Shown piece after piece: positions 35,809 to 56,300 of a stretch of DNA of 64,000 nt. Each line of letters opens with the position of its first letter. Within the stretch, counting starts at the first letter, position 1. Position numbers and translations under genes: made by a program. Location of the stretch: NCBI GenBank assembly GCA_020186115.1, contig WSYJ01000186.1:434001-498000 (forward strand), in the 5' to 3' direction. The notes under the pieces were generated by a model. It was not told the origin of the DNA. It did not search any database and saw only the letters and a program-made list of their open reading frames with translations. Source of the stretch: Histomonas meleagridis (lineage: Eukaryota; Parabasalia; Tritrichomonadida; Dientamoebidae).

Positions 35809-37002
35809 TCAAATTATAAAAATATATTTCAAACAAAACAAAAAAATATTTTTTACATTAATCTCATTCATTTTTTGTTTTAAAATATAATCCACAAGTT
35901 CAATATTGCTTGACTGTACTGCATATAACAAAATATTCTTTGGAGGTTGAATATTTTGAAGAAAATACAAAATAAGATATAAGTTACCATCTTTTGCAGA
36001 TTCATTAATAATTGAATCATTAATTTTCATTCCTTCTTCAATCAAATACAAAAATATTTCATAATTTTGATATAAAACACATTTAATACCTAGTTTTTCT
36101 AAATGATTAATATTTTCAAAGTTATTTTCATAAATATATTTAAAAATAACGTTTCGATGAAATTCAATTGCTGTCTCATAAGAACCATCAAATGATGAAT
36201 GATTTTGTTCACATAAATGAATGATTTCAAGATTTCCGCCTGCAACAGCATATTTACCTGTGTTAATAACATTTGAACCATTCATAAGTAAATATTTAAA
36301 ACATTTAACAGATCTAAAAAATGCTGCAAAATCAATTAATGAAACACTTTTTTCATTAACATATGAAAACCTTTCATAGAGTGATGGTTCAATTATTTGA
36401 TTAAAATCAAAATTTGTTTGCGATGATATTTTTTGAAGTTTTCTTATTTCATCATTTCGAATTATTTTTGATATTTCATTTGTGTTTATTCCTTCATAAA
36501 TATATTTCCTATGTAACTCAAAATTATTTTTTGAAAGCTCTTCATATTCATCAACAATTTGTTTTTTAAACTTTACATGATGTTTTTCTTTAATATATTT
36601 TTCTGTCATATAATGTGCAAAATACGAATGCTTTTTATTTATTACAGTTTGTGATTTGATTAAATTTTGTTCAATAATTTTCTCAAGAAGATAATTTGAT
36701 TCTTGTGTATTTTTATCAAGAAGAAAGTTTGTAAACACATTTAAAATATTGGGCTTGATTTTATATATTTTTTCAATTGTTTCAATTTCCTCGATTTGAT
36801 TTATTAATGTGTTTGAATCATTTACTTGAACAACAAATGAAGAATACATCATAGAACTAATAAGTAAGTTAAAAGAATAAGGAAAATTTTCATCGAATAT
36901 TTGGTCAATGATCATATTGATCCTTTGTGATGAGTTTTTATTGCGTAGATCAAAAATGATTTGAATTATTGATTGAAGTGTATGTACACTAATATTTTGC
37001 AT
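35809..37002 (-). CDS. ankyrin (DUF3447-type) head gene of locus 1
   Basis: 397 residues as a continuous frame. An N-terminal helical region (about 1-160) precedes EYEELSKNNFELHRKYIYEG and the DUF3447-like ankyrin part: LYERFSYVNEKSVSLIDFAAF, CFKYLLMNGSNV, KYAVAGGNLEIIHLCEQNHS, FHRNVIFKYIYENN. The last repeats run to NIELVDYILKQKMNEINVKN and then into the first spacer, where the frame stops (FLFCLKYIFII). The frame therefore ends exactly at an ankyrin-repeat boundary where array 1 continues, so this is probably the 5' part of a longer gene. It is a close paralogue of 52137-53360. Function of the family is not known; ankyrin repeats bind proteins. Confidence 0.85.
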   Translation of the reverse strand: MQNISVHTLQSIIQIIFDLRNKNSSQRINMIIDQIFDENFPYSFNLLISSMMYSSFVVQVNDSNTLINQIEEIETIEKIYKIKPNILNVFTNFLLDKNTQESNYLLEKIIEQNLIKSQTVINKKHSYFAHYMTEKYIKEKHHVKFKKQIVDEYEELSKNNFELHRKYIYEGINTNEISKIIRNDEIRKLQKISSQTNFDFNQIIEPSLYERFSYVNEKSVSLIDFAAFFRSVKCFKYLLMNGSNVINTGKYAVAGGNLEIIHLCEQNHSSFDGSYETAIEFHRNVIFKYIYENNFENINHLEKLGIKCVLYQNYEIFLYLIEEGMKINDSIINESAKDGNLYLILYFLQNIQPPKNILLYAVQSSNIELVDYILKQKMNEINVKNIFLFCLKYIFII

Positions 37003-41790: not shown

Positions 41791-43041
41791 ATGAGTCCTA
41801 AGGTTCCTGAGATTAATATACCTATTATCTCTGGGATTATTCTCATGATGGGAGGTTTTGCAATGGGTCTAACACTTGCTTATTCTTCACCAACCCTTGA
41901 TGAAATCCAAACACAGTTTAAACTTTCATCCATGGGAAGGTCCATGTTTGTAGCATGTAGTCCTCTTGCAGGTTTTGTTGGATCACCATTAATATCAATT
42001 TTAGTTATTAATCGATATGGTAAAAATGTTGCAGGTGTAATCGCAGGTTTTATAGGTGCATTCGCTTATATTGGCATGGGTCTTTCCCAAGTCACATGGC
42101 TTCTTTTCTTAATGCGCGTACTCACAGGTATGAGCAATTTAGGTTTTTATTCAGCCATTTGCCCTGTTTATCTTGCTGAAATTGCACCTGAAGGGAAGAG
42201 TGGTTTCTATGGATTTCTTAACCAAGTTGGACTTTGTCTTGGATTTCTATTTTCCACAATTTTTGGCTTCTTTGCCAAGCGTTCTTTATTGGCTTACATT
42301 TGTTCCATCCCATCCTTTATCTTTATGATAGGAATTATCTTTATCCCATCCAAAGACAATCAAGCCAAAATCAAAACAAAATTTTCATTAATTTTCAAGT
42401 ATAAGAAGAAGCTTGTTATTGCATTTTTCTGCATGTTCTTCCTTCAGTTCTCAGGTCTCAATGCAATTTTAGGTAATCTCCAACCAATAATTGAAAGTTC
42501 AAAAGTTGGCATGGAATCTAAATATGTTGCATTAATCGCCAACATAGTGCAAGTTATTGCCACATTTGTTGCCACATTCCTTATCGACAAGTTAGGATAT
42601 CGATTATGTTGGATCGTATCAACAATTGGACAATTCATTGCATTTCTCTTACTCTTCTTCCAACAACAATTCACACTTGCAGGAGCAATGTTTATGGTTG
42701 GTCTTTTCTTGGAACAGTTTGCATATGGAATCGGTACTGGACCAATACCATTTTCATATGTTTCGCAAATATTTAACTCAGAAGTGCGATCGATTGCATC
42801 TTCATTAGCTACAGCATGCAGTTGGTTGCTGTCTGCAATTGTTTGCTTCTTGTGGCCCGTGTTAGAGGACGCAATGAACAACTATTCGTACATCTTCTTC
42901 GCGGTACTTTTGTTGGCATCCGCTATTTTCGGATTCTTCGCAATTGTTAATACAAAGAAGGACGACGAAAGCTCAAGTTCAAGCGAATCAATTACCAGAA
43001 GATTGTCTAAGAGAACTGAAGATGATGATTACCAAATTTAA
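41791..43041 (+). CDS. MFS sugar transporter, SLC2/GLUT-type
   Basis: 416 residues, 12 membrane segments. Sugar-porter features seen: FVACSPLAGFVGSPLIS, NRYGKN, PVYLAEIAPEGKSGFYGFLN, QFSGLNAILG (helix 7), and GTGPIPFSYVSQIFNSEVRS near helix 10. The PESPRWL motif after helix 6 is missing (IFIPSKDNQAK instead). The C-terminal tail is Ser-rich and short. It probably imports hexoses; the exact substrate is unknown. Initiator TCATTTTCTTTAAATG gives an 11-base 5' UTR. Confidence 0.92.
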   Translation: MSPKVPEINIPIISGIILMMGGFAMGLTLAYSSPTLDEIQTQFKLSSMGRSMFVACSPLAGFVGSPLISILVINRYGKNVAGVIAGFIGAFAYIGMGLSQVTWLLFLMRVLTGMSNLGFYSAICPVYLAEIAPEGKSGFYGFLNQVGLCLGFLFSTIFGFFAKRSLLAYICSIPSFIFMIGIIFIPSKDNQAKIKTKFSLIFKYKKKLVIAFFCMFFLQFSGLNAILGNLQPIIESSKVGMESKYVALIANIVQVIATFVATFLIDKLGYRLCWIVSTIGQFIAFLLLFFQQQFTLAGAMFMVGLFLEQFAYGIGTGPIPFSYVSQIFNSEVRSIASSLATACSWLLSAIVCFLWPVLEDAMNNYSYIFFAVLLLASAIFGFFAIVNTKKDDESSSSSESITRRLSKRTEDDDYQI

Positions 43042-43439
43042 TAAAATATAATAAAATTTTAATAAGTAGAAATAATTAATATTTTTTTTTTTTGACAAAT
43101 AATCAATGTAAAATTGTTGAATAATTTATGTATTTTGAAGAAAAGTTTGAATATGTAATAAAATCAGTATTTGCAATCCGAAAGTCATTTTTCCTCATCC
43201 ATCCAGTTACAACAATAAAATTTTAATTGAAAATTCTGCAGTGTAAAAAGAGTTTTGTTGTCAAAATTGAATAGGTTAAAGTTCAATGTCAAATGTTTTT
43301 AGATACTTTTTCACAGAAATTTGACAAGATTTTTCTCAATTCTCAGAAATATAGTCATTTGTGATATGCTCGAACTATAAAAACTGCCAAATTCAACGAA
43401 ACCTCCATAGTGCATTCAATTTAATGTCATTTTGACATT
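43042..43439. other. intergenic and promoter of the repeat polyprotein
   Basis: A/T-rich. The last 15 bases hold TGTCATTTTGACATTATG, a strong initiator (A at 43429) inside a small palindrome (AATGTCATTTTGACATT). The palindromic form is unusual among the starts here and could bind a dimeric factor. Confidence 0.5.
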
Positions 43440-44636
43440 ATGTTCTTTGCATTCCTCGCTTTAAGAACTATCAAGATCCCTCCAATCAAGCCACCAACAA
43501 CAATCTATAGGCCAACAATTCCTAAGCCAGTTTTTTTCAAAACAGTTAACGATGATGAAGAAGAAAACAAGATCAAGATCAAGAAGATCATCAAGAAGGT
43601 TAAGGATATCGTTGACAAGACAAAGAAGGTCGTCGATGTTGTCGATGAAATCACAAACGATGAAGAAGAAGATGATGGATACTATGTCTTAGAATACGAT
43701 CCAGAAGCTGAAGGCGAAAACAAGTTCAGACTCAAGAAGATCTTCAAGGGAATCGGTAAAGCATTCAAGAAGATTGGCAAGATTTTCAAGAAGGGAAAGG
43801 AAATCTACACAAAAGGCAAAGATATCTATGAAAAGGGTAAGAAGATCTATGACATCATCAAGAACGACGAAGATGAAGATGAAGAAGCCTACTACATCGT
43901 AGAATATGACTCAGAAGCTGAAGGCGAAAACAAGTTTAAGATCAAAAAGATCATCAAGAAGGTTAAGGATATCGTTGACAAGACAAAGAAAGTCGTCGAT
44001 GTTGTCGATGAAATCACAAACGATGAAGAAGATGAAGAAGCATACTATGTCTTAGAATACGATCCAGAAGCTGAAGGCGAAAACAAGTTCAGACTCAAGA
44101 AGATCTTCAAGAAGATCGGAAAGGGAATCAAGAAGATTGGCAAGATCTTCAAGAAGGGAAAGGAAATCTACGAAAAGGGCAAAGATATCTATGAAAAGGG
44201 CAAGAAGATCTATGATATCATCAAGAACGAAGACGAAGAAGAAGAAACATACTATGAACTTGAATACGATCCAGAAGCCGAAGGTGAAAACAAGATCAAG
44301 ATCAAGAAGATCATCAAGAAGGTTAAGGATGTTGTTGACAAGACAAAGAAAGTCGTCGATGTAATCGATGAAGTTACAAACGATGAAGAAGACGAAGAAT
44401 TCGAAATCGAATACGTCCTCGAAGAAGCACCAGAACTTGGCGAAAACAAGTTCAGACTCAAGAAGTTCTTCAAGAAGCTCGGAAAGATCGTTAAGGTAGT
44501 TGTCAAGGTCATCAAGATCGGCTCAAAGATCATCTCTGTAATCGGCAACGATGAAGAAAACACGATTATTAAGCCAGCTATCTGCTACCACTGCAAGCTC
44601 CTTGGAAGAGACTGCCCAAAAATGTGCTATGTATAA
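43440..44636 (+). CDS. secreted cationic/acidic repeat polyprotein, candidate antimicrobial-peptide precursor
   Basis: 398 residues. A short hydrophobic start (MFFAFLAL) may be a signal peptide. A Pro-rich cationic stretch (about 9-37) follows. Then Lys-rich amphipathic segments alternate with acidic spacers. Type A (30 residues, KIKKIIKKVKDIVDKTKK core) covers 44-73, 165-194 and 285-314. Type B (48, 48 and 34 residues, cores such as KKIGKIFKKGKEIY) covers 95-142, 216-263 and 337-370. Spacers of 21-22 residues between them end (A/L)EGEN or GEN. The tail (371-398) has four Cys (CYHC, CPKMC). All 14 Asn lie at segment ends or right beside them, so an Asn-specific legumain-type protease could free each segment. 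Lysines are mostly AAG and codons GC-leaning, unlike neighbours, suggesting high expression. The function is inferred. Confidence 0.8.
   Translation: MFFAFLALRTIKIPPIKPPTTIYRPTIPKPVFFKTVNDDEEENKIKIKKIIKKVKDIVDKTKKVVDVVDEITNDEEEDDGYYVLEYDPEAEGENKFRLKKIFKGIGKAFKKIGKIFKKGKEIYTKGKDIYEKGKKIYDIIKNDEDEDEEAYYIVEYDSEAEGENKFKIKKIIKKVKDIVDKTKKVVDVVDEITNDEEDEEAYYVLEYDPEAEGENKFRLKKIFKKIGKGIKKIGKIFKKGKEIYEKGKDIYEKGKKIYDIIKNEDEEEETYYELEYDPEAEGENKIKIKKIIKKVKDVVDKTKKVVDVIDEVTNDEEDEEFEIEYVLEEAPELGENKFRLKKFFKKLGKIVKVVVKVIKIGSKIISVIGNDEENTIIKPAICYHCKLLGRDCPKMCYV
43566..44562 (+). repeat. threefold ~360-bp tandem coding repeat (A-B modules)
   Basis: The pair type A plus type B with both spacers repeats three times; module starts at residues 44, 165 and 285 (period 363 then 360 bases). 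The third B module has diverged to a Val/Ile-rich form. Within type B a seven-residue step (GKxIYxK) repeats three times. DNA similarity between copies is high, so expansion is fairly recent. Confidence 0.85.
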
Positions 44637-44741: not shown

Positions 44742-46958
44742 ATGAAAAAAACGGAATTTTCTGAGGCGTTCGGGCAGTTTAACATGTCGTACCATGGTGG
44801 GAGATGTGTACTACTTCACGCACGCCATGAGCAGCTCTGTTTGTATGATTTTTCGTCTTTAGATGAAATAGAAAGAATTAATTTCAAAATGCCAATTTAC
44901 AAAATGTTAATGTTGAACACAAACAAAAGCCTAGAAATGCGTGTTGTTGTCATTACAGTTGATGGATTTGCTCATATTATTCAAAATCAGAATAATTCAT
45001 TCAAAAAAACAAAATCAATTGATTTAAAGCAATCTATACAGTCTAACTATATAGCATTTATTAACTTTAAATCACGTATATATATTTTATCAGAAAATAG
45101 AATTGTTATTATAAGTTCATCTGATAAAACAAATAGAAATCAAATATCATGGCCACCTAAAACAATGACTCGTATTCAACATTTTGAAAATTACGGTCAA
45201 TTTGAAGGAGAAAGAACTGTTGCACCAAATTCACATGGATTTTTTGCATACCATTACGTTGGCGAACAATGCCATATCACATCGTGGATTTACGACTTTC
45301 GCACAGACACAGTTATCAACGGACCATACTCAATCCAAGTTTCACCATTTTCAATATATTTATCACCTTTCCACTATATTCAAGGTGATAGCATATATTC
45401 TGTACGTAAAAAACAAAAAATAGGCACAATTAGTAATGTTTCATGCATTTCATCAAATGTAATTTCCGATTCTTCAAATAATTTATTTGAAATTTCGGAT
45501 AATGGAATTAAACAAATAAAATTACTAACAACTTCTCCATTTCAAATATTATCAAATGAATCTGAATACCATTGTCTAAACTTTGATGGGACAATGGATA
45601 ATTTAAAAATTTTTCCTCATTACTCAATATCATCATACTTATCACTTTTTGCAATTCCTTGTACTCCAAAACTTAATATTTTCCCTACTGTTGAAGCTCC
45701 AGAACAAAATCCTTGTTCACTTAATTTTACCCAAGAAATCATTACATCCAAACCAGGTGGTAAATGGGAATCTCCCCATAAAATTGTATCATATGACTCT
45801 ATTCGTGTTGGTCAATATGATTTTTTTATTGCTGCTACATCAGCCACAGTCCACATCTATAAATCGCATCTTAAGAACCCATCAATTTTGCCGATAGACG
45901 AATTTAACTGGGAATCAGCGGTTTTAGCGGTTTCTCTAAATTCCAAACTTTATTCTGTATCAAGTGTTGACAAAAGAATTAAAATACAGCAATATATTGG
46001 AGATGAATATTCATTTACATTTGAGTCATCACTTTGTGTTTCTATTTCTATGTCAGAAACACTTTTAGTAAGTGGGTTTATTGATGGATCTCTAATTGCA
46101 ATATCACTTACAGATAAAACATCATTATGTTCAATTCATCCATTCCGTGTTGCGATAAATTCTATTTCACGATTATCTAACGATAATTTTCTAGTTCAAT
46201 GGGATAAAGTATATGGAAAATTATCAACGACAAAACTCGAATGGGTAAAATTTCCCGAATTTCCAAGTGGATATAACATTTGTTTTTCAGATTATGGCAT
46301 ATTAACAATCGGGAATTCTAACTCTGTAAATGTTTATTCTTTTGCTAATGGACAAATTTTAACGACAATTCCACAAAAGTCAATTTCGATTTGTTCATAT
46401 CAAAGACGAATATATATATTAACAATTTATAACGAAGTCATTGTACTTTATTATCGAAATGTACTTAAATTAGAAACGCAATTTGTTATCGACGTTGATA
46501 CACCTATAAATATTAAAGCGTCGAAAGAAATTATTTATATAATTACATTAAAGAATTTGATTATGTACGATAAGAAAGGTAAAAGAATTAATGAAATATC
46601 ATTAAATTATAGGCCAAGAGCTATTGACTCTATTGATAATGGAATATATTTATTGTATCAAAGATATGTTTTGTTTGTTCAGTCATTAAAAGAAATGAAA
46701 AAAATCGAATTCGACTTACAAAACATTTGTTTCTTAAGTGCGATTGATGAATTAAGATTCATTATAGCATCGAATAATAGAGTGATATATTGTGAGAAAA
46801 AAGGTCAAAAAACTTCGTTTGCACCTTTAGCAAAAACAGAAAAAAATATAATTGGAATAAAATGTTTCCCAAAACTTCCAAAGGAACCATTAAATATGAT
46901 AATGATTCTTTTGGAAGATGGATCAACACATCAATTGGCTATTCCTAAATATAAATGA
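44742..46958 (+). CDS. large beta-propeller (WD40-like) protein of unknown family
   Basis: 738 residues from ATG 44742; an in-frame ATG at 44784 (MSYHGGRCVLLHARHEQLCL) is an alternative. The upstream frame begins at a TTG and is rejected. The whole length is beta-rich with propeller-like blades (LCLYDFSSLDEIERINF, SFEFTFESSL-type strands, LIAISLTDKTSLCSIHPF) and no membrane segment. About 12-14 blades would make two propellers. It is close to, but not identifiable as, IFT or trafficking WD40 proteins. An out-of-frame ATG at 44734 precedes the start (MMK then stop). Confidence 0.8.
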   Translation: MKKTEFSEAFGQFNMSYHGGRCVLLHARHEQLCLYDFSSLDEIERINFKMPIYKMLMLNTNKSLEMRVVVITVDGFAHIIQNQNNSFKKTKSIDLKQSIQSNYIAFINFKSRIYILSENRIVIISSSDKTNRNQISWPPKTMTRIQHFENYGQFEGERTVAPNSHGFFAYHYVGEQCHITSWIYDFRTDTVINGPYSIQVSPFSIYLSPFHYIQGDSIYSVRKKQKIGTISNVSCISSNVISDSSNNLFEISDNGIKQIKLLTTSPFQILSNESEYHCLNFDGTMDNLKIFPHYSISSYLSLFAIPCTPKLNIFPTVEAPEQNPCSLNFTQEIITSKPGGKWESPHKIVSYDSIRVGQYDFFIAATSATVHIYKSHLKNPSILPIDEFNWESAVLAVSLNSKLYSVSSVDKRIKIQQYIGDEYSFTFESSLCVSISMSETLLVSGFIDGSLIAISLTDKTSLCSIHPFRVAINSISRLSNDNFLVQWDKVYGKLSTTKLEWVKFPEFPSGYNICFSDYGILTIGNSNSVNVYSFANGQILTTIPQKSISICSYQRRIYILTIYNEVIVLYYRNVLKLETQFVIDVDTPINIKASKEIIYIITLKNLIMYDKKGKRINEISLNYRPRAIDSIDNGIYLLYQRYVLFVQSLKEMKKIEFDLQNICFLSAIDELRFIIASNNRVIYCEKKGQKTSFAPLAKTEKNIIGIKCFPKLPKEPLNMIMILLEDGSTHQLAIPKYK

Positions 46959-51584: not shown

Positions 51585-52136
51585 CACGAGATATCCAAAT
51601 AATAATTTTTTATATATAAATGCCATGGCGAAATAAAGAATATATTTTGAATTATAAATAATCGGTTTTAACATAAAAAGTTGTGTCGTAATTGTTTATG
51701 AAGTTTCGGAATTTTCAGTGAAATATGGAAATAGTTTAATGTTTTCATTTTTCCGAACGGGTATTGTGCTTCACAACAAGAGATGTAATGAATATGTTCA
51801 AATATTTGCGAACCTTTAATCATCTGTAATTAAATTAACATTGCATTCGAGATAAAAAGAGCATGTGGTTATACATATAATGTAGTATATAAAAATGGTT
51901 ACGATCTATCAAATAATGAAACATTTTTTTTTTTGATTCAATGTTATCTTGTAACAAATTGAAAATTGGGTCTTCAAAAGATAGTACTATATTTAAGTTT
52001 ATTTAGTATTTTGTATATTGTTTCGTATATAAGTAATGAAATATCAAGTGAGATTTATGTGCATTTGTTGTATGGCTTGAAAAATTATTTGTTAGTATTT
52101 TAATCGTTTTAATATCAAATTCATATTTTCCCATAA
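51585..52136. other. intergenic and promoter of ankyrin head gene 2
   Basis: A/T-rich. The head gene starts after TCATATTTTCCCATAAATG (initiator A at 52123, 14-base 5' UTR). No gene seen between. Confidence 0.5.
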
Positions 52137-53360
52137 ATGTCTAATGAATCGATATCAGCCAGCACAAATCATTTAGGAGAAAACACTGAACCCAAAAGCG
52201 AAATAATTATTTTAGATTTACTTATTTCACTTGAACAATTAATATATAATTTAAAAGAAGAAAATCTTGTTTTATCAATTGAACAAACAATCAAACTACT
52301 TGATCTAAATTTTCCATATTCATTTAATTATATAATAAGCAATTTAGTTTACTTTGCGTCTTTTACGCAAAACAAAGATAGTTCTCTATATATCAATTAT
52401 TTACAATCAATTCAAACAGAAGAAGAAATTCATAAAAACATTCCCAAAATCATTGAAATTTTTAATGCGTACATTTATGATTTCAAGTCACAAGAATCTT
52501 ATTATCTGATTGAAAAAATGATTCAAAGAAATTTAATTAGGCAAAACTTTTCAAAAAAGATTCGCTCAAAATATTTTGCTCATTATAAGACTAAAAAAGA
52601 AAACACGAAAAGAATAAGTGATGATCCATTTTGCGGTACTTTTCTAAAAAATTATGAGGAGCTATCAAAGAATGATTTTGAAATTCATAAGCAATTAATT
52701 AAAGAAGGACATAATCCAAATGAAATTGCTAAAATAATTCGAAATGATGAAATCGAAAAACTTCAAGAAATATCATCACAAACAAATTTTGACTTCAATC
52801 AAAGAATTAAACCATCACTTTATGAAAGATGTTCATTTGTTAATCATGAAAATGTTAGATTAATTGATTATGCAGCATTTTTTTCTTCTTCTAAATGTTT
52901 TAAATATTTACTTATGAATGGTGCTAAAGTAAATAAAACAGGTAAATATGCAATTGCAGGTGGAAATGAAGAAATCATTCATTTATGTGAACAGAATCAT
53001 TCAACATTTGAAGGTGCATATGAAGCTTCAATAGAATTTCATCGAAATAATATTTTTAAATATATTTATGAAAACAAATTAGAAAAATTGGATGATAATG
53101 ATTTGATATGTTATTGTATTAGAAGTGGAAATTATGAAATTATATCATTTTTAGAAGAAAGAATGAAAATAAATGAAAAAGTTATCATTGAATCAGTAAG
53201 AATTGGTAACTTATATCTTACGAAACATTTTCTCCAAAAAAATAAAGTGCCAAGAAAAATAATGCTTTTTTGTGTTGAGTCTAAAAATAATGAACTTATT
53301 AAATATATTTTAGAACAGGATGGAATTGATGTTAATGCAAGAAATGTTTTTATATTCTAA
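52137..53360 (+). CDS. ankyrin (DUF3447-type) head gene of locus 2
   Basis: 407 residues. It has the same plan as the minus-strand head at 35809-37002: helical N-terminus (about 1-170), YEELSKNDFEIHKQLIKEGH, RNDEIEKLQEISSQTNFDF, then ankyrin/DUF3447 repeats (SLYERCSFVNHENVRLIDYA, CFKYLLMNGAKVNKTGKYAI, FHRNNIFKYIYENKLEK) ending LIKYILEQDGIDVNARN. The frame stops four codons later (VFIF), exactly where a spacer of the array begins. The ankyrin series resumes in register after the spacer at 53426. The head is thus probably exon 1 of a longer gene, or a shortened gene followed by silent repeats. Confidence 0.85.
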   Translation: MSNESISASTNHLGENTEPKSEIIILDLLISLEQLIYNLKEENLVLSIEQTIKLLDLNFPYSFNYIISNLVYFASFTQNKDSSLYINYLQSIQTEEEIHKNIPKIIEIFNAYIYDFKSQESYYLIEKMIQRNLIRQNFSKKIRSKYFAHYKTKKENTKRISDDPFCGTFLKNYEELSKNDFEIHKQLIKEGHNPNEIAKIIRNDEIEKLQEISSQTNFDFNQRIKPSLYERCSFVNHENVRLIDYAAFFSSSKCFKYLLMNGAKVNKTGKYAIAGGNEEIIHLCEQNHSTFEGAYEASIEFHRNNIFKYIYENKLEKLDDNDLICYCIRSGNYEIISFLEERMKINEKVIIESVRIGNLYLTKHFLQKNKVPRKIMLFCVESKNNELIKYILEQDGIDVNARNVFIF

Positions 53361-56300
53361 ACAAAGTTTGCATTAATATTTTGATATTTCAAAATAATAT
53401 TTGGAAATTATTTAAATTATTTTGTACAGCACTTATGTTTGCAGCTAGAAATGGTTATACAGAAATAGTTAAATTACTTCTTGAACAAGAAGAAATTGAA
53501 ATAAATACTAAAAATATTTTTTCGTTTTGTTTAAAATTTATAATAGTAATTTGATAATTCAAAATAATATTTGGAATTTATTCAAATTATTTTGTACAGC
53601 ACTTATGTTTGCAGCTAGAAATGGTTATACAGAAATTGTTAAATTACTTCTTGAACAAGAAGAAATTGAAATAAATACTAAAAATATTTTTTCGTTTTAT
53701 TTAAAATTTATAATAGTAATTTGATATTTCAAAATAATATTTGAAATTTATTCAAATTGTTTTGGACTGCACTTATATATTCATCTTTTCATTGTTACAT
53801 AGAAATAGTTGAATTACTTTTAAATCAAAAAGGAATTGATGTTAATGCTAAAGATAATTATTTGTTTTATATAAATTTTATTTTAATAATTTAAAATTTC
53901 AAAATACTATTTGGAAATTATTTAGAATATTTAAAACTGCACTTATTATAGCGTCCATGAATGGTAAAATCGAAATTGTTAAATTACTTCTTAAACAAAA
54001 AGGTATTGATATTAATGCCAAAGCTAAAATTTATTCTAATAATTTTTTGATTTAAAATAATATTTGGTAATTATATCAAATATTTTGGACAGCACTTATG
54101 TTTGCATCTAAAAATGGTTGTACAAAAATAGTTAAATTACTTCTTCAACAAGAAGAAACTGATATTAATGCCAAAGATTTTTGTTTATTTTATATAGTAT
54201 TTATTTGTTTAAATTAAAATTTGTTTTAATCATTTGATATTTCAACATAGTATTAGGTAATTATTTAAATTATTTAAAACAGCACTTATTTGTGCAACTG
54301 AAAATGGTTATATAGAAATAGTTCAATTACTTCTTAAACAAAAAGGAATTGAAATAAATGCTAAAAGTATTTATTTGTTTTATTCATTATTCATTTTAAT
54401 GATTTTATAATATTTCAAAATAATATTTAAAAATTATAGAAATTATTTTGGACAGCACTTATGTATGCATCTGTAAAAGGTTATACAGAAATAGTTAAAT
54501 TACTTCTTGAACAAGAAGGAATTGATATTAATGCTAAAAATATTTATTTGTTTTATTTAGTATTTATTTTAATAATTTAATATTTCAAAATAATATTTGG
54601 AAATTATTTAAAATATTTGATACAGCACTTATGATTGCATCCAAAAATAGCATTGAAATAGTTAAGTTACTTCTAGAACAAGAAGGAATTGATATTAATG
54701 CTAAAGATATTTATTTGTTTTATTTAATATTTATTTTAATGATTTGATATTTCAAAATAATATTTGGAAATTATTTAAATTACTTAAAACAAAACTTATT
54801 TGTGCATCTGAAAATGGTTATATAGAAATAGTTAAATTACTTCTTGAACAAGAAGGAATTGATATTAATGCTAAAGATATTTATTTGTTTTATTTAATAT
54901 TTATTTTAATAATTTGGGATTTCAAAATAATATTTGGAAATTGTTTGAATAATTTAATACAGCACTTATTTGGGCATCTGTAAAAGGTAATATTGAAACA
55001 GTTAAATTACTTCTTGAACAAGAAGGAATTGATATTAATGCTAAAAATATTTGTTTATTTAAATTAAAATTTGTTTTAATAATTTGATATTTCAAAAAAA
55101 TGTTTGAAAATTGTTTGAATTATTTTATACAGCGCTTATGTTGGCATGTCATAAAGGTCATACAGAAGTAGTTAAATTACTTCTTAAACAAAAAGGAATT
55201 GAGGTCAATTCCACTGATATTTTTTTAAGTTTTATAATGTTTATTTTGTTAATTTTATGTTTTAAAACAATATTTGGTTTTTATTAAAACAATTTAAAAC
55301 AGCACTTATGTTGGCATGTCATAATGGTCATACAGAAATCTTTAAATTACTTCTTGAACAAGATGGAATTGATATTAATGATAAAGATAATATTTATTTT
55401 AATAATTTTCTATTTCAAAATATTATTTGGAAATTATTTAGAATATTTAAAACTGCACTTATTATGGCATCCATGAATGGTAAAATCGAAATTGTTAAAT
55501 TACTTCTTAAACAAAAAGGTATTGATATTAATGCCAAAGCTAAAATTTATTCTAATAATTTTTTGATTTAAAATAATATTTGGTAATTATATCAAATATT
55601 TTGGACAGCACTTATGTTTGCATCTTTAAAAGGTTATACAGAAATCTTTAAATTACTTCTTGAACAAAAAGGTATTAATATCAATGATAAAGAATTTCAT
55701 TTATTTTCTTTAAATTTTTTTAATGCGGTTTGATATTTGTAAGTTATATTTGGAAATTATTTAAATTATTTTTGACAGCACTTATGTTAGCATCGAAAAA
55801 CGGTCATACAGAAATCGTCAATTTACTTCTTGAACAAGAAAATATTGATATTGATTGCAAAGATATTTATTTATTTTTCATAAAATTTATTCGAATTACT
55901 TGAACTTTCAACATAATATTTGGAAATTGGTTAATTTATTTAAAACAGCTCTTCTATGTGCAGTTTCAAATGGGAATATAGATATATATAAATTGCTTTT
56001 TGCACGCAAGAGGGCCGATATTAATGATAAAAATATATATTAAATTTGTTTAAAATTCGCTTTGATAATTTTTTGTTTCATCATAATATTTGGGATCTAT
56101 TTAAAATTATTCATACGGCTCTTATCCTTGCATCCAAATTTAATCATATAGAAATAGTTAAATTCCTTCTTGAACAAAGAGGAATTGACATCAATTTAAA
56201 AGATATTAATTTGTTTTAATTAAAATTTTTAATAATGATTTAGTACTTATTAATCATATTTGGAAATTGTTCAAACTATTTAATACAGCTCTTTTTTATG

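Follow-up and report, generated by a model that had tools for sequence, protein, structure and literature searches.

A conserved gene family of Histomonas meleagridis encoding putative asparagine-cut multi-peptide precursors

Introduction

Several described systems lie close to the gene family reported here. SFTI-1, which is released by an asparaginyl endopeptidase, belongs with the Bowman-Birk-type inhibitors of plants, and Bowman-Birk-like peptides are also present in frog skin. Saposin-like proteins constitute a folded domain family. In the caecal parasite Histomonas meleagridis, the agent of blackhead disease in poultry, expanded saposin-like pore-forming proteins have been proposed to serve an anti-bacterial use (PMC8529796, excerpt), and the trichomonad AMP-Lcn972 bacteriocins, Lac_972-domain proteins of bacterial origin, have been proposed as antibacterial peptides, and H. 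meleagridis is reported to have a homologue (PMC12612818, excerpt). With regard to precursors built of several units, the Ib-AMP precursor of Impatiens balsamina joins a signal peptide to several mature peptides that acidic propeptides of 16-35 residues keep apart, the Ib-AMPs themselves being small disulfide loops without a helix, and one type of plant alpha-hairpinin precursor contains 5-12 modules (PMC10136942, excerpt).

The gene considered here occupies positions 43440-44636 of the forward strand of a 64,000-nucleotide stretch of the H. meleagridis genome (the window; contig WSYJ01000186.1, positions 434,001 to 498,000) and encodes a protein of 398 residues. As in the Ib-AMP precursor, several peptide units are parted by acidic propeptides; the Histomonas repeats, however, are free of Cys, amphipathic and flanked by Asn, and are thereby set apart from Ib-AMPs by description. 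The loop of SFTI-1 and its plant and frog-skin counterparts is exact in the tails of some paralogues, but there it closes a protist precursor made up of amphipathic units, and no match extends outside the loop. The alpha-hairpinin pattern C-X3-C-Xn-C-X3-C recurs in the tails of L009, L011, L012 and P0010, whereas the tail of the window protein reads C-X2-C-X6-C-X3-C; in contrast to alpha-hairpinins, the Histomonas Cys unit is single and terminal, and in three of the four tails the Cys pairs enclose the 7-residue Bowman-Birk loop. The window protein gave no Lac_972 Pfam match at E <= 1, and no saposin Pfam match was obtained for the family proteins examined.

A search of titles and abstract starts in the open-licence PMC literature found no description of the family. 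One excerpted report (PMC8529796) names eight expanded H. meleagridis families, one of them labelled I43 peptidase inhibitors, and the present family may be among them. The peptide polyprotein is a known kind of precursor, and the combination of amphipathic units, flanking Asn and, in some members, Bowman-Birk tails was not found for a protist in the literature searched.

Layout and setting of the gene

The window protein had been put forward in a preliminary description, based on the letters alone, as a candidate antimicrobial-peptide polyprotein with Asn at its segment boundaries. On recheck, the open reading frame, the length of the protein, the segment lengths and the 14 Asn (residues 37, 43, 73, 94, 142, 164, 194, 215, 263, 284, 314, 336, 370 and 374) all proved to be as given there. 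Lys-rich amphipathic segments of 30, 48, 30, 48, 30 and 34 residues alternate with acidic pieces, of which five are spacers of 21-22 residues and two are shorter (6 and 4 residues). When the protein is split after each Asn, the successive net charges are +6, -5, +5, -11, +14, -12, +5, -11, +14, -12, +5, -12, +11, -3 and +3; the precursor as a whole carries 88 basic residues against 91 acidic ones, a net charge of -3. The features are collected in Table 1.

Table 1. Features of the window protein, with positions in the window
Feature	Position	Strand	Residues	Basis or remark
Hydrophobic leader, probable short secretory signal	43440..43469	+	1-10 (MFFAFLALRT)	Hydrophobicity of residues 2-8
Basic Pro-rich N-terminal piece	43470..43550	+	11-37, Asn37 at end	Similar-length Pro-containing basic stretch after the leader in most paralogues
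Short acidic piece	43551..43568	+	38-43, Asn43 at end	Charge split
Amphipathic basic module A	43569..43658	+	44-73 (30 aa, net +5), Asn73 at end	Helical moment 0.74 vs shuffled mean 0.39, p=0.003
Acidic spacer	43659..43721	+	74-94 (net -11), Asn94 at end	Amphipathicity absent, p=0.63
Amphipathic basic module B	43722..43865	+	95-142 (48 aa, net +14), Asn142 at end	Helical moment 0.83, p=0.001
Acidic spacer	43866..43931	+	143-164 (net -12), Asn164 at end	Charge split
Amphipathic basic module A	43932..44021	+	165-194 (30 aa, net +5), Asn194 at end	Charge split, helical moment
Acidic spacer	44022..44084	+	195-215 (net -11), Asn215 at end	Charge split
Amphipathic basic module B	44085..44228	+	216-263 (48 aa, net +14), Asn263 at end	Helical moment 0.86, p=0.001
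Acidic spacer	44229..44291	+	264-284 (net -12), Asn284 at end	Charge split
Amphipathic basic module A	44292..44381	+	285-314 (30 aa, net +5), Asn314 at end	Charge split, helical moment
Acidic spacer	44382..44447	+	315-336 (net -12), Asn336 at end	Charge split
Terminal amphipathic basic module C	44448..44549	+	337-370 (34 aa, net +11), Asn370 at end	Motif in 10/14 genomic members
Short acidic linker DEEN	44550..44561	+	371-374, Asn374 at end	Charge split
Four-Cys tail C-X2-C-X6-C-X3-C, without Bowman-Birk loop	44562..44633	+	375-398	Cys pattern

The gene is flanked by two open reading frames on the same (+) strand, one at 41791-43041, whose product resembles a sugar transporter, and a long one at 44742-46958. 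Upstream of the start codon, at 43420-43439 of the window and at the corresponding place in paralogues, the element TTGCCAAA, TGTCATT or a close form was observed in 11 of 12 members, L013 being without it; this TTGCCAAA/TGTCATT-like element is possibly the trichomonad initiator element. Elsewhere in the window, at 52001-56000, GC content falls to 20-22% with a positive GC skew, and this region holds an open reading frame (52137-53360) that by eye resembles the one at 35809-37002. No Rfam match was obtained at gathering thresholds between 38000 and 50000 of the window.

Members of the family

Genome searches with six queries (the window protein, L011, L020, L018, P0007 and P0008) located at least 14 family places in the 43.28-Mb, 121-contig H. 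meleagridis assembly, namely the window gene, L009-L020 and L047, a count to be read as a lower bound. Protein profile searches added P0007, a 15th H. meleagridis family protein, and three more relatives (P0008-P0010), whose contigs measure 589 to 1528 bases and which have the leader, spacers and junctions common to the family. Homologous genes, which the preliminary description had left to later searching, were thereby found. A single-sequence search with the window protein against a set of 5.8 billion proteins gave no match at E <= 0.001; the two profile searches returned only H. meleagridis hypothetical proteins and the three relatives, the first of them giving six proteins, all from H. meleagridis. 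Relatives from Trichomonas vaginalis or Tritrichomonas foetus were not among the 8000 candidates scored in each profile search, an absence that is weak as evidence because only that number was scored. The PDB sequence search returned nothing useful (best E 0.39 for the window protein, none for the L009 terminal module, best E 0.91 for alignment A1). Matches of the window protein below the Pfam and NCBIfam cut-offs (NHR2, poxvirus A6, adenosine deaminase and others) were rejected as composition-driven, as were those of P0002 and P0008.

The 18 family proteins range from 121 to 438 residues and contain from none to 11 intact modules, with module type and spacer length also varying. L011 has 11 basic modules, nine of which are of 27 residues and are joined by acidic linkers of 4-6 residues; L016 alternates two unit types, L019 carries a 30-residue unit three times over, and L047 is a short, degenerate member.

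Several side observations concern individual loci. L014 (C8:118263-118685) and L015 (C8:141488-141910) are near-identical, lie about 23 kb apart on opposite strands, and differ by an extra interior Asn in one of them. At L017:885-1367 (reverse strand) the frame lacks the leader ATG, and the public protein P0005 starts differently; this is possibly a broken gene or a sequencing error. P0007 lies on a 385,887-bp contig and was not found in the assembly used (best match 63%), which comprises 121 contigs compared with the 187 published for the virulent strain. Finally, L048:778-2139 (C40:1488401-1489735) encodes a 445-residue protein whose leader (MFFAFFAL) is similar and whose basic repeats, each about 38 residues long and with Asn in their interiors too, are separated by linkers such as N-E-D-N-E-N. 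No relatives of it were found in the assembly, and it is possibly a second, unrelated precursor of like plan.

Chemistry of the pieces

The helical moment was calculated for pieces of at least 18 residues, taking the best 18 residues of each and comparing them with shuffles. Basic modules have moments of about 0.60-0.86, above their shuffles (p 0.000 to 0.018), with a peak near 105 degrees, and would probably form helices. Amphipathicity is doubtful for two pieces between Asn, one of 31 residues in L017 (p 0.055) and one of 25 residues in L047 (p 0.099); among the acidic spacers, none is amphipathic relative to shuffles (lowest p 0.07). The modules span net charges from +14 to -1. In L011, L012 and L016 the modules of 27 residues are amphipathic but, at a net charge of only -1 to +1, hardly cationic, and in this they are unlike a classical cationic antimicrobial peptide. 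Module charge and the charge of the upstream spacer are inversely correlated (Spearman -0.75, over 48 related pairs). The net charge of the precursor lies within +-4 in 10 of the 18 proteins, the outliers being L011 (-22), P0010 (+17), L013 (+10) and L019 (-9).

Asparagine at the module boundaries

In the window protein all 14 Asn stand at or beside junctions between Lys-rich and acidic stretches. The charge step was measured over seven residues on either side and compared with 5000 random placements, with Asn counted as neutral because the segments are partly defined by the Asn themselves. The step averages 6.07 at Asn versus 2.46 at random positions, a value that none of the 5000 placements reached, and the control residues G, P, Y, S, T, I and V gave no signal; the placement of Asn in the window protein is not due to chance. 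In the same test all 18 family proteins gave p <= 0.0424 for Asn, although these proteins are related and hence not independent, and the only control residue below 0.05 was Gly, in L012 (0.0188) and L047 (0.0264). The interiors of the segments are indeed free of Asn in the window protein, as had been claimed, but this feature is not specific to Asn, since the protein has no Gln at all and only 3 Ser. Because of this scarcity of Gln and Ser, Asn depletion within modules was dropped as evidence. N-glycosylation was ruled out as a cause of the Asn: the N-x-S/T sequon is absent from 16 of the 18 proteins, and three occur in total, in L015 and L018.

Across the family, almost all module ends retain their Asn, with modules of 27, 30, 33/34 and 48 residues and spacers of 4 to 28 residues, and Asn stands on both sides even across linkers of 4-6 residues. 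It closes the module despite residues inserted before it (one in L012, three in P0007), and L016 terminates exactly at a module-closing Asn, with the stop codon next and no tail; L018 is an exception, its C-terminal end lacking a final Asn. The 14 genomic members have 139 Asn between them: an acidic stretch follows 62, Lys follows 52, and neither follows the other 25. Several of these 25 are still at boundaries, such as the EEN that precedes the tail in the window protein and in L009, and the true interior ones include N52 of L014/L015 and N124 of L015, together with N15 and N39 of L018. The preliminary description had made its proposal hinge on whether homologues place Asn at random and lose the charge alternation; in the relatives, Asn placement is non-random and the alternation is kept.

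A module-start model was built from the 14 residues after N-K junctions, the Asn itself being left out, and scanned over the 18 proteins; since Asn served to select the training pieces, the model could miss a module type that never bears Asn. Asn precedes 37 of 37 places scoring at least 8, 54 of 56 at a threshold of 5 and 57 of 72 at a threshold of 3, where the 15 Asn-less places are shifted matches within modules that have their own Asn. The residue before the module-start Asn is E in 50 of 58 cases, A in six, and D and V in one each. A corresponding module-end model was undiscriminating (Asn at 46 of 68 places scoring at least 8, the remainder being mostly register shifts), so that the claim for module ends rests on the sequences themselves.

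Constraint was estimated on 10 copies of module C, whose 45 pairwise comparisons (the near-identical L014 and L015 among them) gave a mean pS of 0.64 and a mean pN of 0.13. Synonymous change in this terminal module is near saturation and the protein is under purifying selection, a pattern strongly against the view that the genes are low-complexity coding sequence devoid of peptide function and kept through duplication and biased codon use. Such a view would accommodate the repetitive, Lys/Glu-rich composition and the empty single-sequence search, yet the same plan recurs in P0008-P0010 with leader and junctions conserved, and we consider it very improbable.

The main rival holds that the protein is never cut and acts as a modular polyampholyte, for instance a granule matrix or membrane-coating protein, in which Asn caps both ends of each helix. 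Asn is a common helix-capping residue and stands at either end of helically amphipathic stretches, where caps are expected, and alternating charge blocks would suit self-association. Helix-capping positions, however, normally accept Asp, Ser, Thr and Gly besides Asn, whereas Asn precedes all of the best module starts despite near-saturated synonymous change. Moreover, the flanking Asn persist where the spacer has only 4-6 residues, and copy number and module order vary, as they do in precursors. On balance, the Asn features of the family agree more readily with cleavage than with helix capping, and an uncut protein appears unlikely, though it is the alternative to be taken most seriously.

Leader and legumains

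At residues 2-8, the window protein has seven hydrophobic residues of seven and 17 of the 18 family proteins have at least six, L017 having five; none of the 32 other open reading frames of the window reaches six. A degenerate pattern of the family leader matched eight places in the genome, seven of them in the family, and a reversed control matched none. Position 9 of the leader is Arg or Lys in most members, which is unusual for a signal peptide.

At a legumain cleavage site, Pro is not expected after the Asn. The window protein has Asn in the putative P1 position at its boundaries, with Pro after none of the 14, and in the 18 proteins a single Asn of 165, in the P0007 tail, is followed by Pro. 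A preliminary suggestion that trichomonad legumains perform the cutting can now be set against the source organism, which is the trichomonad H. meleagridis and does possess such enzymes: the legumain family PF01650 gave 12 genome matches above its cut-off, one of which is partial and two of which are adjacent fragments. Seven legumain open reading frames read from these 12 loci begin with similar very short hydrophobic leaders (e.g., MFFALLSFVQS). Peptidases of family C13 cleave after Asn (PMC4450334, excerpt), and the H. meleagridis exoproteome contains one legumain (PMC6391000, excerpt).

Cysteine-bearing tails and the Bowman-Birk loop

A Cys-bearing tail ends 12 of the 14 genomic members. 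Four of them have the exact loop CT-P1-S-x-PP-x-C, with Lys (L009), Leu (L011), Phe (L012) and Lys (L019) as P1, and the window protein is without it. Such P1 residues suit trypsin- and chymotrypsin-like enzymes. When the tails were shuffled, the loop motif arose 0 to 4 times per 200,000, and a looser DNA pattern of the loop had six matches in the genome, including those four tails, compared with two for the reversed control. CT-x-S-x-PP-x-C is given as the Bowman-Birk inhibitor motif in a review (PMC7760496, excerpt). Against the family model PF00228, the L019 tail scored below the cut-off (18.0 versus 20.4 bits, E 0.0035), the L009 tail reached 8.3 bits and ranked behind an unrelated family, and the tails of L011, L012 and the window protein gave no match; a genome search with PF00228 found no match and missed L019 as well. 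Among solved structures, pro-SFTI-1 is the best match to the L009 tail (E 0.22), which is not significant alone. As judged from these comparisons, the Bowman-Birk likeness of the four tails is one of motif and not of family membership.

These loops also speak for a variant in which the precursor is cut and its products work chiefly on the host rather than on bacteria, by lysing cells, modulating immunity or inhibiting proteases. H. meleagridis invades the caecal wall, and the P1 residues of the four paralogue tails (two Lys, Leu and Phe) would fit such a target. Nevertheless, the loop is absent from the window protein and nothing in the present data ties the family to host cells, which makes a mainly host-directed role improbable.

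Codon use

Codon adaptation was scored against two genes, 417 codons in all, that we take to encode ribosomal proteins; the reference is small and the score partly depends on amino acid composition. The window gene scored 0.676, close to the reference gene within the window (0.712), compared with 0.356-0.459 for the 31 other non-ribosomal open reading frames of the window. Within the family the values run from 0.392 (L013) to 0.701 (L019), with 5 of 14 below 0.47, and codon bias is ordinary-looking in L013, L047, L020, L014 and L015. All 14 Asn codons of the window gene are AAC, while the genomic members together have 93 AAC and 46 AAT. The codon bias suggests strong expression of some members, including the window gene.

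Proposed function and its meaning

The genes form a real, conserved family, laid out as an Asn-cut precursor of several peptides would be. The best explanation, to which we assign a probability of roughly 60%, is a secreted precursor of several peptides that is charge-masked by its spacers and cut by legumain after Asn, yielding helical peptides that act on membranes; between cut and uncut protein, the precursor is the reading that we favour as somewhat the likelier. Helix formation, secretion, cutting, membrane or antimicrobial activity and inhibitor activity are what we infer from the sequences. According to this model, the short hydrophobic leader would direct the precursor into a secretory or lysosomal route, and the acidic spacers would offset the basic amphipathic modules, so that the window precursor would remain near neutral and do no harm to the cell that makes it. 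Legumains, the asparaginyl endopeptidases of family C13, would then cut after each boundary Asn and release Pro-rich, helical (30, 34 and 48 residues) and Cys-rich peptides. The helical peptides would most likely be membrane-active, chiefly on the bacteria that the caecal parasite depends on and eats, and in the four paralogues with an inhibitor-loop tail this last unit may shield the peptides or weaken the trypsin or chymotrypsin of the host gut. Bacteria are required for the growth of H. meleagridis and also serve as its food (PMC8529796, excerpt). Given the chemistry of the modules and this dependence, antibacterial action would be the likeliest use.

In its most far-reaching form, the proposal would make this the first protist peptide system released by asparaginyl endopeptidases, with Pro-rich, helical and Cys-rich peptides, a uniform cut code of flanking Asn and, in some members, a convergent SFTI-like Bowman-Birk inhibitor as last unit; this broader claim is tentative, and we put it at slightly below even odds. 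Trypsin-based proteomics would reduce the Lys-rich units to very small pieces, which may explain why the family has gone unnoticed.

If the proposal is true, peptide precursors of the type found in plants and frog skin would extend to a parabasalid protist, where the cut code could be read off the sequence, and the presence of a Bowman-Birk loop in a protist would constitute a striking convergence. Trichomonad legumains, which in paper titles are treated as adhesion factors or biomarkers, would acquire a role in maturation. For the parasite itself, a family that resembles an arsenal of peptides, its window gene and several paralogues using codons much as ribosomal-protein genes do, would supply named genes for the way in which H. 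meleagridis handles the bacteria it needs.
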